Shown here: in pieces, positions 30,129 to 43,388 of the stretch
Layout: the number at the start of each line of letters is the position of its first letter
Numbering within the stretch: position 1 is the stretch's first letter
NCBI GenBank assembly: GCA_945902775.1
Contig: CAMDMY010000002.1
Coordinates: forward strand, 1-64,000
Length of the DNA: 64,000 nt
From: Chryseobacterium gleum
GTDB taxonomy: Bacteria > Bacteroidota > Bacteroidia > Flavobacteriales_D > Crocinitomicaceae
Direction of reading: 5' to 3'
Program-made: the position numbers and the translations under genes
The notes under the pieces: generated by a model
The model's input: only the letters and a program-made list of their open reading frames with translations
What the model was told of the DNA's origin: nothing
The model's database searches: none

Positions 30129-31040
30129 ATGAATGATGACTTAAATTTACCACAAAATCAAATTGAACACTTAATCTATTATATTCGAGGAGTATATGTT
30201 ATGTTTGACCGTGATTTAGCAGAAATATATCAAGTTGAAACGAAAGTTTTAAACCAAGCGGTAAAAAGAAATATTGCTCGTTTTCCTGATATTTTTCGAT
30301 TTCAAATAACAGATGAGGAACTTTTCGATATAACTTCAAATTCTGATCGTTCGAGTTCAAGGTCACAATTTGTGACCTTGAACAAAAAACGCGGGAAAAA
30401 TATAAAATACCTGCCTCATGTATTTACAGAACAAGGAGTTGCAATGCTTTCTGCTATATTAAGAAGTGATGTTGCAATTCAAGTAAGTATACAAATTATC
30501 AATGCTTTTATAGAAATGCGCAAGACTATTAATCATCATCAAGGGTTATTACAACGCGTTGAAAATATTGAACGTAAAATTTTAAAATCAGATGATAAAA
30601 TAGAACATATCTTAAATGCAATTGAAAATAAAGAATCTATTCCCAGTCAAGGGGTGTTTTTTGAAGGTCAAGTGTTTGATGCTTATTTGTTTGCAACTAA
30701 AATTATTAGGTCTGCAAAGAAAAGTATAGTTTTAATTGATAACTATATAGATGAAACGACTTTAGTTCATTTATCAAAGAAAGAGAAAAGTGTAAAAGTA
30801 TTATTACTTTGTAAAAATCAAAGTAAACAATTAGATTTAGATGTTCAAAAATCGAATGCCCAATATGGGAATTTTGAAATAAAAAATTTTATTGAAAGTC
30901 ATGATCGTTTTTTAATTATCGATAGTATGGAAATATATCATTTGGGAGCATCATTGAAAGATTTAGGTAAAAAGTGGTTTGCTTTTTCAAAAATGGATAA
31001 AAATTCTGTTGAAAGCATAATGAATAAAATCTCACTATGA
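30129..31040 (+). CDS. ORF6N-domain protein with C-terminal PLD-like region
   Basis: A 303-residue protein. Residues about 10-100 form an ORF6N DNA-binding domain (YIRGVYVMFDRDLAEIYQVETKVLNQAVKRNIARFPDIFRFQITDEE, then YLPHVFTEQGVAMLSAILRSDVAIQVSIQIINAFIEMR), common in phage and mobile-element regulators. A coiled segment follows (about 130-165). The C-terminus (VFDAYLFATKIIRSAKKSIVLIDNYIDETTLVHLSKK... SHDRFLIIDSMEIYHLGASLKDLGKKWFAFSKMD) resembles half of a phospholipase-D fold, with HDR in place of the HxK motif. The coding sequence contains a perfect 29-bp palindrome. Function unknown; it may be a stand-alone regulator or defence-related. Confidence 0.8.
   Translation: MNDDLNLPQNQIEHLIYYIRGVYVMFDRDLAEIYQVETKVLNQAVKRNIARFPDIFRFQITDEELFDITSNSDRSSSRSQFVTLNKKRGKNIKYLPHVFTEQGVAMLSAILRSDVAIQVSIQIINAFIEMRKTINHHQGLLQRVENIERKILKSDDKIEHILNAIENKESIPSQGVFFEGQVFDAYLFATKIIRSAKKSIVLIDNYIDETTLVHLSKKEKSVKVLLLCKNQSKQLDLDVQKSNAQYGNFEIKNFIESHDRFLIIDSMEIYHLGASLKDLGKKWFAFSKMDKNSVESIMNKISL
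30355..30383. repeat. Perfect 29-bp palindrome inside the ORF6N gene
   Basis: GTTCAAGGTCACAA, a single T, then TTGTGACCTTGAAC: 14-bp perfect arms. It encodes SRSQFVTLNK between the two halves of the ORF6N domain. It could be a protein-binding site, a recombination site or an mRNA hairpin. Confidence 0.85.
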
Positions 31041-32120: not shown

Positions 32121-32154
32121 AAAACGGTAGAATCATTTAAGTTTCTACCGTTTT
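32121..32154. terminator. Rho-independent terminator (bidirectional)
   Basis: AAAACGGTAGAA pairs with TTCTACCGTTTT across a 10-nt loop. It lies between the convergent ansA and the envelope gene at 32169, with A and T runs on both sides. Confidence 0.88.
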
Positions 32155-32168
32155 GTTAATTTTGATGG

Positions 32169-33338
32169 TTAGTTAAACTTTGGAGATTTATTGATGTTTT
32201 CTTTTTTACTGATAACATTAAATCCAATACTAGCTCCTATCATTCCTCCGTTTTTAACCGATGAATAAAAAATATTTACAGGAATATTTAATCCTCCAGA
32301 TGTAAATGTTCGTCCAAAACCCATTACCCATTTAGTACTTATTGACACATCACCTCTTGTATCTAAATTTGTTGTATAAGGATATTTTGAATCTGTAGAA
32401 ACACCAGGAGTTGAAGTTTTAGGTAAAGAATTATATGCTTCTTTAGACCAATAATATCCTTCACCTTTTCCATACGTATTATCTTTATCAAAAAATCCTT
32501 TTGATGTTTTTTCGATACCAAAACTTGGTCCGAATGCAATTTCCCATCCTTTTTTCCCGAATCTAAATCCATTCATAAATGTTAATGTAGGAATAAATGA
32601 ACTGTGTTCTAATCCGGAAATATTTATAATAGTTTCAAATAGTGCTGAAAAATTTTCCGTACCAATGTATTGTTTTTCAAACTGATACCCTATCATGCTA
32701 AAAGATGGTACGGTAAGAGCTAATCCACCTTCATCTTCACTTCTTTGAGTAAATTCGCTCAAAGTACCTGTTAAATATGCGTAACCAATTCTTGGTCCAG
32801 AATTATTGATTCGCCCAACATTGTTTGATGTAATTACTTCATTTTTGAACATTAATTTATCCGTTAATTCTTTTTGATTTGTTAAATCGTGCATTTCACG
32901 AATCGTAATTTCAATCATTCTTTGTAATTCAATCTCTTGATTATCAAATTCTTTTACAGCTGTTTTGTAGATAAATTTTGTTTTAATGTCAATTATTTTA
33001 AGACTAACCACAATTTTTTGCCCTAAACGATCGATACTTCCACAAATTATAAAGTCAACTTTTAAAGCACTTCCTAATTGAGTTAAACAATTTAAGCCAA
33101 AACAATTTGAAGCATAAGTTGAATCATTTTTTAACACTTCAGCCATATCGTATTCATCATATACATTGTACTTATTTATTTTAATCAATTCAAGATTAAT
33201 TAATTTAGAAACTATTTTAGGAGTTGCAAAAAGGCCTTGAACCGATGGTGAAGCAACTGCTATACTAGATGTTGATTGTGCGCTTATAGAGAAGAATGTT
33301 CCAATAAACACTGCGATACTTAAAATTTTAGTTTTCAT
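32169..33338 (-). CDS. Exported protein with CsgG-like N-terminal region and beta-barrel-like C-terminus
   Basis: A 389-residue protein with a signal peptide (MKTKILSIAVFIGTFFSISAQ). Residues about 35-150 (IKINKYNVYDEYDMAEVLKND... CFGLNCLTQLGSALKVDFIICGSIDRLGQKIVVSLKIIDIKTKFIYKTAVKEF) have the pattern of CsgG/FlgO/DUF2380-like nucleotide-free domains that sense or assemble in the envelope. The rest (IGYAYLTGTLSEF... FALSMIGYQFEK-type beta strands... VMGFGRTFTSGGLNIPVNIFY) reads like an outer membrane barrel. It follows the 190-aa gene by 26 nt. I do not recognise a named family for the full length. Confidence 0.6.
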   Translation of the reverse strand: MKTKILSIAVFIGTFFSISAQSTSSIAVASPSVQGLFATPKIVSKLINLELIKINKYNVYDEYDMAEVLKNDSTYASNCFGLNCLTQLGSALKVDFIICGSIDRLGQKIVVSLKIIDIKTKFIYKTAVKEFDNQEIELQRMIEITIREMHDLTNQKELTDKLMFKNEVITSNNVGRINNSGPRIGYAYLTGTLSEFTQRSEDEGGLALTVPSFSMIGYQFEKQYIGTENFSALFETIINISGLEHSSFIPTLTFMNGFRFGKKGWEIAFGPSFGIEKTSKGFFDKDNTYGKGEGYYWSKEAYNSLPKTSTPGVSTDSKYPYTTNLDTRGDVSISTKWVMGFGRTFTSGGLNIPVNIFYSSVKNGGMIGASIGFNVISKKENINKSPKFN

Positions 33339-38780: not shown

Positions 38781-41700
38781 TTGAAACATTTTGCTACTAT
38801 AGTTTCTATTTTGTTTTTGTGTTCCATTTTTGGACAAGAGACTGGTATGTGGATGCATCCAAATAAAGGGCAATGGGCTGAACCTATATTGTATAAAGTT
38901 GAATTGGATTATGGAGAAATGTTTATTGAGAAAAATCAATTTACTTATGCTCTAAATGACTTTAAACAGAAAATGTCGCATCAGCACGAAAACAAGTCTA
39001 AATCAGCTGTTGAATCTTCAAAAATTATTGAATCTCATATAATTAAATCAACCTTTAAAAATTCTTCTTGGGCAGGAGTAAAAAATGAAAAATCAATTTC
39101 TTCTTTTTACAGAAATTATTTTCAAGGAAATGACCCACTGAAATGGAAATCAAAGTTAAATAGTTTTAAATTGATTGAGTTTGTTGATTTCTATCCGAAT
39201 ATAGACCTTGTTTTAGATGGGAATAATGAAAAATTTAAATACTCCTTTATTGTTTATCCAAATACGAATCCAGCTCAAATTCAATATGAAATTACAGGTG
39301 CAAATTCAGTTAAGATAGATGAAAAGGGGAATTTAATTATAGAAAATCGATTTGGAAATATTATTGAAGAAAAACCAATTGCTTGGACTTATTCTAAAAC
39401 TGGGAAAAAAGATGTGGAAGTAAATTTTAGTTTGAATGAAAACACAGTTTCATTTCAATTTCCTGAAGGGTTTAATCAAGAAGACACGCTTATTATTGAT
39501 CCAAGTTTATTGTTTTCTACCTTTTCTGGTTCTACTGCTGATAACTGGGGGATGACAGCAACACCAGATACACAAGGAAATTTATTGGCTGGAGGGATTG
39601 TTTTTAATGATGGGGGAGTTTATCCAGTTACTGTCGGCGCTTTTAATACAACTATAAATGGGGGAGATTCTTATGTGTTGGGTTCTTTAATTCAAGGGTT
39701 TGACATTGCGATTTCTAAATTCAATCCAACGGGAACACAACTTTTGTATGCGACATATTTAGGTGGTGCAGCGAATGAAGCTCCTCATAGTTTAGTAACA
39801 AATGGAAATGATGATTTATTTATAATGGGAGTAACCGCTTCTACTAATTTTCCAACTTCTTCTAGTGCTTTTGATAATTCATTTAATGGTGGTCCAGAGA
39901 TTCTTGAGAATGAATTGTTTTATAGAGGAACAGATATTTTTGTTACAAAATTAAGTCAAGATGGTTCTCAATTATTGGGTTCAACTTATATCGGAGGATC
40001 AGGTACAGATGGGGTAAATATTGGAGATTTAAATTATAATTATGGTGACCCGTTTAGAGGTGAAATTATTGAAGGTGCTGATGGATATGTTTATGTTTCT
40101 AGTACTACTCAATCTTCAGATTTCCCGACTGTAAACGCTTCACAGTCCTCATTAAAAGGAAGTCAAGATGCCGTAGTGTTTAAATTGAACAGCGACTTAT
40201 CTTCCATTGGTTGGTCATCTTATTTTGGCGGTTCAGGATTAGAAACAGGTAATTCTATTCAAAAATCTTCAAATGGTAGTTTGTACGTAGCAGGTGGAAC
40301 AACTTCAACTGATTTGCCTTTTTTAATAGGAAATGACCTTTCTTATAACGGAGGTATAGCAGATGGCTATGTAATGCGTTTAGCAAATTCAAGTGGCAAT
40401 ATACTTCAGGGTACTTACATGGGCTTAAACGAATATGATCAAGCTTATTTTGTGCAATTAGATTTAAATAATGATGTATATGTATATGGTCAAACAGAAT
40501 CTAGCTGGCCAATAACTGCAGGAAAATATGGTAATCCTAATTCAGGTCAATTTATTAGAAGGTATAATCAATCTTTAACTTCTATTGTTTGGACAACAAT
40601 GGTCGGAGCAGGAACGGGCTATCCTGAAATTTCACCGACTGCTTTTTTAGTTTCAAACTGTAGTGATATTTATATTTCTGGTTGGGGCGGTCAGGTTAAT
40701 AATCAAAATAGTCAATATGCTCATAATAGTAACACTTCAGGTTTTCCTATAACTGGAGATGCTTTTCAGAGTTTAACAAATGGAGATAATTTTTATATTG
40801 CAGTTTTAGGAAATGACGCTTCAACATTGAAATATGCCACCTTTATGGGAGGAGTTAATGGAAGTTATAACCATGTGGATGGAGGTACAAGTCGTTTTGA
40901 TAAATCTGGAAGAATTTACCATGCTGTCTGCGGGGGATGTGGTAGAAATTTAAATGGGTTTACAACTACTCCTGGAGTATTTTCACCTCAAAATCAAGGT
41001 TCTAATTGTAATTTGGCCGCTTTTAAATTTGAACTAAATAGTTATGCTCCAATTATTGGTTCGGCTGACAGTGTAATTTGTTTACCTGATTCTGTTATTT
41101 TTAAGAATTCAGTTTCTAACGGAAATTCATTTCTTTGGGATTTTGGTGATGGAACAATTTCAAAATCTTTAAATCCGAAACATTATTATTCCATTCCAGG
41201 GAAGTATATTATTAAATTATTAGTAAAGGATACGGTTAATTGTTTTGTGAGTGATTCATTTTATTTTGATGTTCGCGTTGTTCAGTTTTTACCAAGTGTA
41301 GTTATCCCACTTAATCCGGTTTGTGCTGGGAATTCGTTTACTCTTAATGCTTCAGGTGGTTTAAATTATAGTTGGACTCCGACAAATGTATTAAGTAACC
41401 CATTGATTGCCAATCCTATTGCTAAAATATATTCTACAACAAATTTCCAAGTTGTTATTTCAGATGTATGTGGTTCACAAACTTTGAATGTGAATGTGGT
41501 TGTTTTGCCTGTAATCACTAGTCTAACGAATGATACGACTATTTGTTTAGGCCAGTCTGTTCAACTTAAAGCGACAGGTGGTGTTTCATATCAATGGTCA
41601 CCCTCTACTTTTGAACTTAGTAGCTTAAATAGTGTTTCTCCAATTTGCACTCCTTCTCAAACCAGGAAATATTATGTCAATATTACTTCTTTAAATGGCT

Positions 41701-43388
41701 GTATAACAAAGGATTCGGTAATTGTTTCTGTACATCAAAGTGCATTAAAACCGATTGTAGTCGATTCAATTATTTGTATTCAAGATTCTTTAAAGTTGGT
41801 AAATTCAAATGCTTCAAGTGTTAAATTTGATTGGAGTTTTGGTGATGGAATAACATCTAAATTATTTTTACCGACTCATTATTATACTAATCCGGGAACG
41901 TATCCTTTGAAAGTTGTTTTTACAGATACGGTTTATTGTTTTGTCAAAGATTCTATTTTAAAGAATATTAAAGTCAATCAATATAATGGCGGAATTTTAA
42001 CACCCCCTCAGTCAATTTGTCCCAATACTTATTTTCAATTAGAAGCTTTTGGAGGAACTAGTTATTTATGGTCGCCTGCTAACTTGTTAGATAATTCAAT
42101 AATTGCAAAACCAATTGCTACAATTAATTCAGCAACAACATTTACTGTTTTAATTTCAGATGAATGTGGTAGTGGAAATTATACGCTTCCTTTAAGTGTT
42201 TATAGTAATCCACATCAAATCTCATCGGATACTTCTATTTGTATTGGAGGCAATGCTCAACTTTTTGCAATCGGTGGTTCAAGCTATAGTTGGACACCAA
42301 CAAACTCACTGAATAACCCTTTGCTTTCAAATCCAGTTGCAACTCCATTGGTAACGACAAAATATTTTGTAAATATTATTACAGGAAATAATTGTAGTAT
42401 TCATGATTCTACGGTTGTGAAAGTTTTTAATTTTCCACCAATTCCGATTTTAAAAGATTCTGTAAAAACATGCAGATATTCTTCGGTTCAGCTTATTGCC
42501 GATGGAGCTGAGCGTTACAAGTGGTCTCCAAATCAATATATAAATTCAATTATAAATGATACGGTAATTGTGAATCCTTTAAATAGTATAACTTACTATT
42601 GTGATTTTATTAATGCATGCGGTAAAAATGAGGATAGTATTTATATTGAGGTATTAATACCTCAAATTCTACCTGCAAAAGACACTTCTATTTGTCCTAA
42701 TAACTCAGCTAAATTATATGCAAATGGTGGTATAAAATATGATTGGTATTTTAATACAGACTTTATAGGTACTACCATGTTGGATAGTTTTGTGGTTTTC
42801 CCGACAGTAACATCAAATTATAGTGTAGTTGGAACAGATAAAAATAATTGTAAGGATACCGCTTCGATGAATGTAATTTTATATGTCCCAGTTGAAATTC
42901 GAGCTTGCCCAACAATATATGCAATACAAGGAGATATAGTTGAATTATCTACTATAAATAGTCCTGTAGGCATCTATACTTGGTCACCAAATACTTACTT
43001 ATCTTGTGATGTATGTCTCAAACCTTTTGCTAATCCTGATATGGATTTTACTTATAAAGTTAATTTGATAGATTCAAATGGGTGCGTATCATCTGATAAA
43101 GTTCAAATTATATACGATGGATTAATTTTTGTTCCAAATACCTTCACGCCGGATGCACCAATTAATAATATTTTTATTCCCAAAGGTGGAAATATTAGAT
43201 CGTTTGAAATATCAATTTTTGATAGATGGGGTAGTATAGTTTTTACTTCAAATTCCATCAATCAAGGATGGGACGGAACATTTAAAGGAGTAAAATGTCA
43301 AGTTGGTACCTATACATGGAAAATTTTATATGGAGATTACAACCATACTAAAAAAGAACTTGTAGGGCATATTAACTTGTTAAGATAA
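38781..43388 (+). CDS. 1535-residue T9SS surface protein: DUF7948, SBBP propeller, PKD/Ig repeats, type B CTD
   Basis: The start is TTG (38781), needed for the signal peptide MKHFATIVSILFLCSIFGQ; no in-frame ATG lies between it and residue 22 (METGMWM-like). N-terminal domain (about 20-245: MWMHPNKGQWAEPILYKVELDYGEMFIEKN... FYPNIDLVLDG... DTLIIDPSLLFSTFSGS) is of the DUF7948 kind. It is followed by a beta-propeller of SBBP repeats (about 245-750: YLGGAANEAPHSL, YFGGSGLETGNS). PKD domains sit near 780-830 and 1010-1065 (WDFGDGT, WSFGDG). Six Ig-like repeats of the form GG-SY-WSP lie between about 860 and 1320. The type B CTD is at about 1450-1535 (NTFTPDAPINNIFIP... FDRWGSIVFTS... WDGTFKG... 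VGTYTWKI... GHINLLR). Probably an adhesin or gliding-associated protein. Confidence 0.9.
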   Translation: MKHFATIVSILFLCSIFGQETGMWMHPNKGQWAEPILYKVELDYGEMFIEKNQFTYALNDFKQKMSHQHENKSKSAVESSKIIESHIIKSTFKNSSWAGVKNEKSISSFYRNYFQGNDPLKWKSKLNSFKLIEFVDFYPNIDLVLDGNNEKFKYSFIVYPNTNPAQIQYEITGANSVKIDEKGNLIIENRFGNIIEEKPIAWTYSKTGKKDVEVNFSLNENTVSFQFPEGFNQEDTLIIDPSLLFSTFSGSTADNWGMTATPDTQGNLLAGGIVFNDGGVYPVTVGAFNTTINGGDSYVLGSLIQGFDIAISKFNPTGTQLLYATYLGGAANEAPHSLVTNGNDDLFIMGVTASTNFPTSSSAFDNSFNGGPEILENELFYRGTDIFVTKLSQDGSQLLGSTYIGGSGTDGVNIGDLNYNYGDPFRGEIIEGADGYVYVSSTTQSSDFPTVNASQSSLKGSQDAVVFKLNSDLSSIGWSSYFGGSGLETGNSIQKSSNGSLYVAGGTTSTDLPFLIGNDLSYNGGIADGYVMRLANSSGNILQGTYMGLNEYDQAYFVQLDLNNDVYVYGQTESSWPITAGKYGNPNSGQFIRRYNQSLTSIVWTTMVGAGTGYPEISPTAFLVSNCSDIYISGWGGQVNNQNSQYAHNSNTSGFPITGDAFQSLTNGDNFYIAVLGNDASTLKYATFMGGVNGSYNHVDGGTSRFDKSGRIYHAVCGGCGRNLNGFTTTPGVFSPQNQGSNCNLAAFKFELNSYAPIIGSADSVICLPDSVIFKNSVSNGNSFLWDFGDGTISKSLNPKHYYSIPGKYIIKLLVKDTVNCFVSDSFYFDVRVVQFLPSVVIPLNPVCAGNSFTLNASGGLNYSWTPTNVLSNPLIANPIAKIYSTTNFQVVISDVCGSQTLNVNVVVLPVITSLTNDTTICLGQSVQLKATGGVSYQWSPSTFELSSLNSVSPICTPSQTRKYYVNITSLNGCITKDSVIVSVHQSALKPIVVDSIICIQDSLKLVNSNASSVKFDWSFGDGITSKLFLPTHYYTNPGTYPLKVVFTDTVYCFVKDSILKNIKVNQYNGGILTPPQSICPNTYFQLEAFGGTSYLWSPANLLDNSIIAKPIATINSATTFTVLISDECGSGNYTLPLSVYSNPHQISSDTSICIGGNAQLFAIGGSSYSWTPTNSLNNPLLSNPVATPLVTTKYFVNIITGNNCSIHDSTVVKVFNFPPIPILKDSVKTCRYSSVQLIADGAERYKWSPNQYINSIINDTVIVNPLNSITYYCDFINACGKNEDSIYIEVLIPQILPAKDTSICPNNSAKLYANGGIKYDWYFNTDFIGTTMLDSFVVFPTVTSNYSVVGTDKNNCKDTASMNVILYVPVEIRACPTIYAIQGDIVELSTINSPVGIYTWSPNTYLSCDVCLKPFANPDMDFTYKVNLIDSNGCVSSDKVQIIYDGLIFVPNTFTPDAPINNIFIPKGGNIRSFEISIFDRWGSIVFTSNSINQGWDGTFKGVKCQVGTYTWKILYGDYNHTKKELVGHINLLR

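Follow-up and report, generated by a model that had tools for sequence, protein, structure and literature searches.

An Intragenic Palindrome of a Mobile ORF6N Gene as the Probable Operator of Its Own Protein

Introduction

What keeps a perfect palindrome of 29 bases in the middle of a protein-coding sequence? The question is raised by a 64,000-nucleotide stretch of contig CAMDMY010000002.1 (Chryseobacterium gleum, assembly GCA_945902775.1), hereafter the window, in which an ORF6N gene carries at positions 30355-30383 the sequence GTTCAAGGTCACAATTTGTGACCTTGAAC, that is, GTTCAAGGTCACAA-T-TTGTGACCTTGAAC. A first reading, made from the sequence only, had described it as free of mismatches and had suggested that it might be the gene's own operator, a recombination site, or an mRNA fold. 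The analysis of ORF6N homologues reported here points to the first of these: the palindrome is likely to be bound by the protein of its own gene and to serve as a portable negative-feedback operator.

The Palindrome and Its Gene

The two arms of 14 bases are 100% complementary around a one-nucleotide centre at 30369, which confirms the absence of mismatches. This palindrome is the only one of such size in the window, for which 0.0014 perfect palindromes with arms of at least 14 and a one-nucleotide centre are expected at the window's base composition; when arms of at least 10 are considered, there is one other, at 42646-42665. It starts 0.24 kb into an open reading frame of 303 codons on the forward strand (30129-31040), and thus lies inside the coding region. 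The product belongs to the ORF6N family (PF10543), which it matches over its first third (residues 15-110, profile positions 2-86 of 86) with an E-value of 3.7e-28 and 98.1 bits, for a curated cut-off of 27.8. The sequence-only reading had correctly placed the palindrome in ORF6N coding sequence, but the peptide that it gave, SRSQFVTLNK, is not exact, as the bases encode residues S76 to N85 (SSRSQFVTLN) and the next lysine falls outside. Elsewhere in the same genome, sequences with at most three mismatches to the palindrome are confined to the two ORF6N genes; the copy of the second gene, GAGGTCACAAATTGTGACCTC, has its outermost pair changed on both sides. A palindrome scan of the window found no comparable palindrome upstream of the ORF6N gene.

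Conservation of the Symmetry across Homologues

Among ORF6N homologues, the palindrome is kept as DNA, and not merely as a peptide. In 163 distinct motif sequences (a set that includes some loci retrieved by palindrome pattern), 1565 complementary cells are observed, compared with 1348±10 in amino-acid-preserving shuffles, where codons are exchanged only among identical amino acids. A second set relied on homology only, with 92 ORF6N domains picked without the palindrome pattern and filtered to less than 75% identity. In 34 of these domains, there are perfect stems of at least 8, closed by a 3-nucleotide loop, for 0.38 expected from synonymous codon redraw; the symmetry far exceeds chance. The palindrome is also used in two reading frames that yield unrelated peptides (RSQIVT at codon position 0, VTNCDR or VIKKFDN at position 1), while the third frame would run into a stop. 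Peptide conservation alone is ruled out by the shuffles and by this second reading frame. Synonymous changes that break the symmetry, the observation that was expected to speak against a function of the DNA, are rare, and synonymous changes accompany compensating changes in the other arm.

Conservation of an exact sequence can be ruled out as well: members found on Segatella and Treponema plasmids have very different arms and other cores (e.g., GAGGTTATCAAAAAATTTGATAACCTC), and are palindromic nonetheless. What is constant is the location, since the palindrome lies 87 nucleotides downstream of the recognition codon (described below) in nearly all members, the median and both quartiles being 87. 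General hairpin richness of coding DNA is excluded, as a stem of 8 is reached in 2.5% of flanking coding windows, many of which correspond to RhuM, DUF1016, or missed ORF6N genes. For bacterial genomes (the window's own genome and 240 family genomes), a dispersed palindromic element is also ruled out; in the 240 family genomes, the copies are almost all in or adjoining ORF6N genes, and are not spread over many unrelated genes in the manner of the Rickettsia elements.

An mRNA hairpin controlling translation or stability would fit the early position of the palindrome in the gene, and every palindrome of this type also folds as RNA. Such a hairpin would tolerate G·U as a standard pair, yet among the mismatched cells G·T (37) and A·C (35) are equally rare. 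The constraint is, therefore, strand-symmetric and acts on DNA. As a DNA-reading helix also covaries with the bases (see below), the mRNA-fold option fails, and can be regarded as extremely improbable.

Two plasmids of Segatella copri, 4.1 and 3.0 kb in size (L366, NZ_CP152486.1, and L367, NZ_CP152354.1), in which only replication and ORF6N genes are annotated, carry palindromes with unrelated arms. At another locus (L080, 1958-3293), an ORF6N gene split by a stop codon contains many tandem palindrome-coding repeats (LRSQIVTLEND, LRSQNATI, LRYQNGTSSS).

Covariation with the Recognition Helix

The AlphaFold2 model of the window protein has a mean predicted local distance difference test (pLDDT) of 78 and a predicted template modelling score (pTM) of 0.45. 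It displays a helix at residues 27-33, a turn, and a helix at residues 38-47, a shape suggestive of a helix-turn-helix motif, of which the second helix (TKVLNQAVKR, codons 30240-30269 of the forward strand) is proposed as the recognition helix. The palindrome-coded peptide lies in the only long low-confidence stretch of the model, a disordered segment covering residues 73-91 (pLDDT below 50, codons 30345-30401 of the forward strand).

Every protein column was scored for its ability to predict the base at stem pair 3. The top predictors, all in the proposed recognition helix, are residues 43 (z 122), 40 (z 50), and 44 (z 36), for an all-column median z of 0.86, and the other columns with high values are solely those of the palindrome-coded loop. 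Residue 43 follows a simple code, glutamine being found with A (85 cases), glutamate with G (66), and lysine or arginine with C (25), which describes 176 of 180 homologues and leaves four misfits. The code is equally clean in the homology-only loci (Gln-A 73, Glu-G 43, Lys/Arg-C 24). Residue 39 is similarly coupled to pair 6, where lysine goes with G in 125 cases out of 126, and other residues with A in 48 out of 57. In the window, the forward-strand codons of K39, V40, and Q43 are at 30243-30245, 30246-30248, and 30255-30257, respectively; the base coupled to Q43 is the A at 30365 (partner T at 30373), and that coupled to K39 is the G at 30362 (partner C at 30376). Side-chain contacts usually associate glutamine with adenine and arginine or lysine with guanine, while glutamate can contact cytosine; the residue-base pairings of the ORF6N code are chemically usual.

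The coupling is also found along the tree, from whose construction helix and loop were excluded. There, the base changes 48 times and the residue class 47 times, for 49 joint changes, compared with 101 when residue classes are shuffled, so that base and residue 43 switch together about 47 times. When only supported branches are retained, independent pairs agree in six cases out of six, unlike those of control columns. Members of frame 0 have the coupled base at the third, synonymous position of a codon for serine (TCA with Gln in 58 cases, TCG with Glu in 51, with few exceptions); protein-protein coevolution, therefore, cannot explain the coupling. The frame 1 members behave in the same way (Q-A 27/27, E-G 11/11). 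From this covariation, the palindrome is very probably the binding site of its own gene's protein, and self-recognition by the ORF6N protein is, from the sequence evidence, highly likely. The operator suggested initially is thus strongly supported, as half-site bases covary with residues of that protein's recognition helix.

The same data bear on mutational maintenance, in which replication template switching would keep the arms identical without any function. Template switching has been described as perfecting hairpins (PMC8794818, PMC8604942), and it would account for strict complementarity combined with a changing sequence. Nevertheless, it would not pick one place per family, such stems are missing from the flanking coding DNA, and the coupling of bases to residues of a helix at a distance of 29 codons, through about 47 co-switches, contradicts it. 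This makes the explanation very improbable.

Extension to RhuM, DUF1016, and Bro-N Genes

The strong palindromes found in flanking coding DNA are often inside RhuM, DUF1016/YhcG, or Bro-N genes, all of which are PADLOC candidates. When loci of these families are sampled by Pfam match alone, stems of at least 8 occur in 18 of 29 RhuM (PF13310; 0.6 expected), 15 of 30 DUF1016_N (PF17761; 1.0 expected), and 7 of 27 Bro-N loci (PF02498; 0.3 expected), mostly with a single place and a single frame for each family. In PF05635, used as a control, no such stems occur, except for an artefact due to a run of N. Covariation with the recognition helix is clear in RhuM (z 22.9 for a median of 2.8, n=50), where the helix-turn-helix motifs KxTISEH, KQNISLH, RTINYH, and KTIGKH are associated with TTCGGAA, TCAAGGA, TTCGAAA, and TCGCAAA, respectively. 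Visual comparison suggests that the two coupled columns of RhuM align with ORF6N residues 40 and 43. The DUF1016 (n=17) and Bro-N (n=12) alignments have too few rows for this analysis. A self-encoded operator with a recognition code would, thus, exist in at least two families, and probably in four.

On the Treponema plasmid pTS1 (L371, 499-5234), an ORF6N gene separates the methyltransferase gene of a restriction system from that of the specificity subunit, and the gene next to it, annotated as Fic, codes for a Bro-N domain and likewise contains a coding palindrome of its own.

Proposed Mechanism and Alternative Uses of the Site

In the proposed mechanism, the ORF6N protein would act as a dimer and read each half-site (AAGGTCACAA) by its helix-turn-helix, with helix 38-47 as the recognition helix; Q43 would read the A:T pair 30365/30373, and K39 the G:C pair 30362/30376. 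Once bound 0.24 kb past the start, within the coding region of the gene to be controlled, the protein would stall the elongating RNA polymerase and limit its own expression. We infer binding, dimerisation, and roadblock together, and such a feedback site within coding sequence would work behind any promoter where the mobile gene lands. In 17 informative relatives, tatD adjoins ansA without an ORF6N gene; the window gene is, therefore, a single-gene insertion between the two. This insertion into an existing gene pair and the lack of an upstream palindrome in the window were both counted in favour of an intragenic operator. Given self-recognition, feedback by roadblock can be considered quite likely.

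Several observations weigh against this mechanism. Where palindromes flank ORF6N genes, only 18 of 32 agree with the code of the closest such gene; these flanking copies may be additional operators of the same gene. Tandem intragenic copies sometimes differ in core type (13 of 20 alike, for 7.7 expected), and strictly identical specificity among them was not found. The effect of self-binding on expression is, like the binding, a prediction from sequence, and the strength of a roadblock at such a site is putative. Two further observations, concerning palindrome arrays and viral contigs, also favour other uses of the site.

The first of these uses is recombination or mobility, the palindrome being the target when the single gene inserts, duplicates, or recombines. 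The insertion between tatD and ansA would be in line with this, as would a palindrome-array site that occurs both with and without an adjoining ORF6N gene, and where one array has apparently lost the DNA between its first palindrome and its last. However, the gene inserted in the window has no palindrome at either end, the palindrome has a fixed place inside the coding region in four families, and recombination does not predict covariation with the recognition helix. It is, consequently, quite improbable. The array site itself (L158, G032:C49, 277-494; L127, G031:C75; L125; L126) comprises about five different intergenic palindromes; in two relatives, an ORF6N gene is inserted alongside, and in one of these two the array has apparently collapsed.

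The main alternative is that self-recognition takes place at a site that is used as a defence tag or switch, for example, as a parking site that the protein would leave upon the arrival of phage DNA carrying similar palindromes, or of a phage regulator. PADLOC lists the ORF6N family among phage-defence candidates, and the window protein matches the full-length PDC-S05 profile (E 7.8e-113, residues 6-301) as well as phage anti-repressor profiles. The palindrome is also enriched in viral contigs, the 21-mer AAGGTCRCAANTTGYGACCTT being present in 33 viral-contig stretches (L208-L340), compared with 0 and 1 for two permuted controls. Nevertheless, these viral copies are mostly solitary, without an ORF6N gene nearby, several come from the same phage lineages, many are terminator-like, and the sites are not linked to hosts with ORF6N genes. 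A search of viral contigs with one relative as the query found no relatives. Moreover, anti-phage activity is for PDC-S05-type proteins a candidate role, suggested by profile match only, and most PADLOC PDC candidates are unvalidated. Defence sensing or self-tagging is, thus, rather unlikely, and negative feedback by the bound ORF6N protein is preferred.

Comparison with Known Systems

The closest precedent is C.Kpn2I, which has its site in its own reading frame and, when bound, stalls RNA polymerase; its authors propose a wider use of this type of control (Klimuk et al. 2018, PMC6237814). The mobile defence context is another common point with ORF6N. C.Kpn2I, however, belongs to another protein family, and the available part of that paper describes no coding palindrome shared by the whole family and tied to the residues of recognition (PMC6237814). 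Binding and roadblock are experimental for C.Kpn2I, whereas for ORF6N we infer them. LacI bound at O3 similarly roadblocks its own gene (PMC3711431), but O3 is part of the lac system rather than a coding palindrome kept throughout a mobile gene family. PARCELs and the Rickettsia palindromic elements, like the window site, are palindromic DNA within coding sequence, but they are either scattered over genes or arranged as tandem repeats of surface proteins, with no described covariation with a DNA-binding helix (PMC2996958).

ORF6N, RhuM, Bro-N, and DUF1016 are listed by PADLOC as single-gene phage-defence candidates (PDC-S05, S23, S04, and S02, respectively), and the window gene belongs to them by profile. 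No coding palindromes or DNA sites were found for these four families in the literature, of which subscription journals and preprints were mostly outside coverage. The kind of mechanism is already known from C.Kpn2I; what would be new is an operator that is encoded by the gene itself throughout a family and comes with a recognition code that can be read.

The rest of the protein offers few clues. Its C-terminal part, about residues 174-303 (30648-31037 of the forward strand, boundary approximate), is PLD-like according to Foldseek matches and a conserved block. The matches comprise TrmBL2, Tdp1, and PLD folds, with low TM-scores of about 0.3, and a sequence search of the Protein Data Bank gave no match. 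The best matches, the archaeal regulators TrmB/TrmBL2, combine a DNA-binding N-terminal part with a PLD-like C-terminal domain; at such TM-scores, and with a model pTM of 0.45, this likeness may serve as a lead only.

Significance

Genes of the ORF6N, RhuM, Bro-N, and DUF1016 families are common and mobile. It is reasonably likely that several families of mobile single-gene regulators and nucleases, of the class of phage-defence candidates, are self-addressed, each gene carrying the operator of its protein where the coding sequence specifies a tolerant loop. If so, regulation would move along with the gene, and the operator would evolve as one unit with the recognition helix. A promoterless gene could then keep its dose under control even when it has landed behind foreign promoters, which would generalise the single experimental case of C.Kpn2I. 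The DNA specificity of each member would be readable from sequence alone, constituting a natural library of protein-DNA specificities that spans bacteria, archaea, and phages, with thousands of self-cognate helix/half-site pairs for deriving a recognition code. It would also offer a directly testable entry into what ORF6N-type defence candidates do.

Other Inverted Repeats of the Window

The second perfect palindrome of the window, TTGAGGTATTAATACCTCAA (42646-42665, arms of 10), is unrelated to the ORF6N finding and sits in a 1535-residue open reading frame (38781-43388) resembling a large secreted protein. A terminator-like inverted repeat, AAAACGGTAGAA/TTCTACCGTTTT, lies at 32121-32154, between the convergent ends of ansA and of the gene at 32169-33338.
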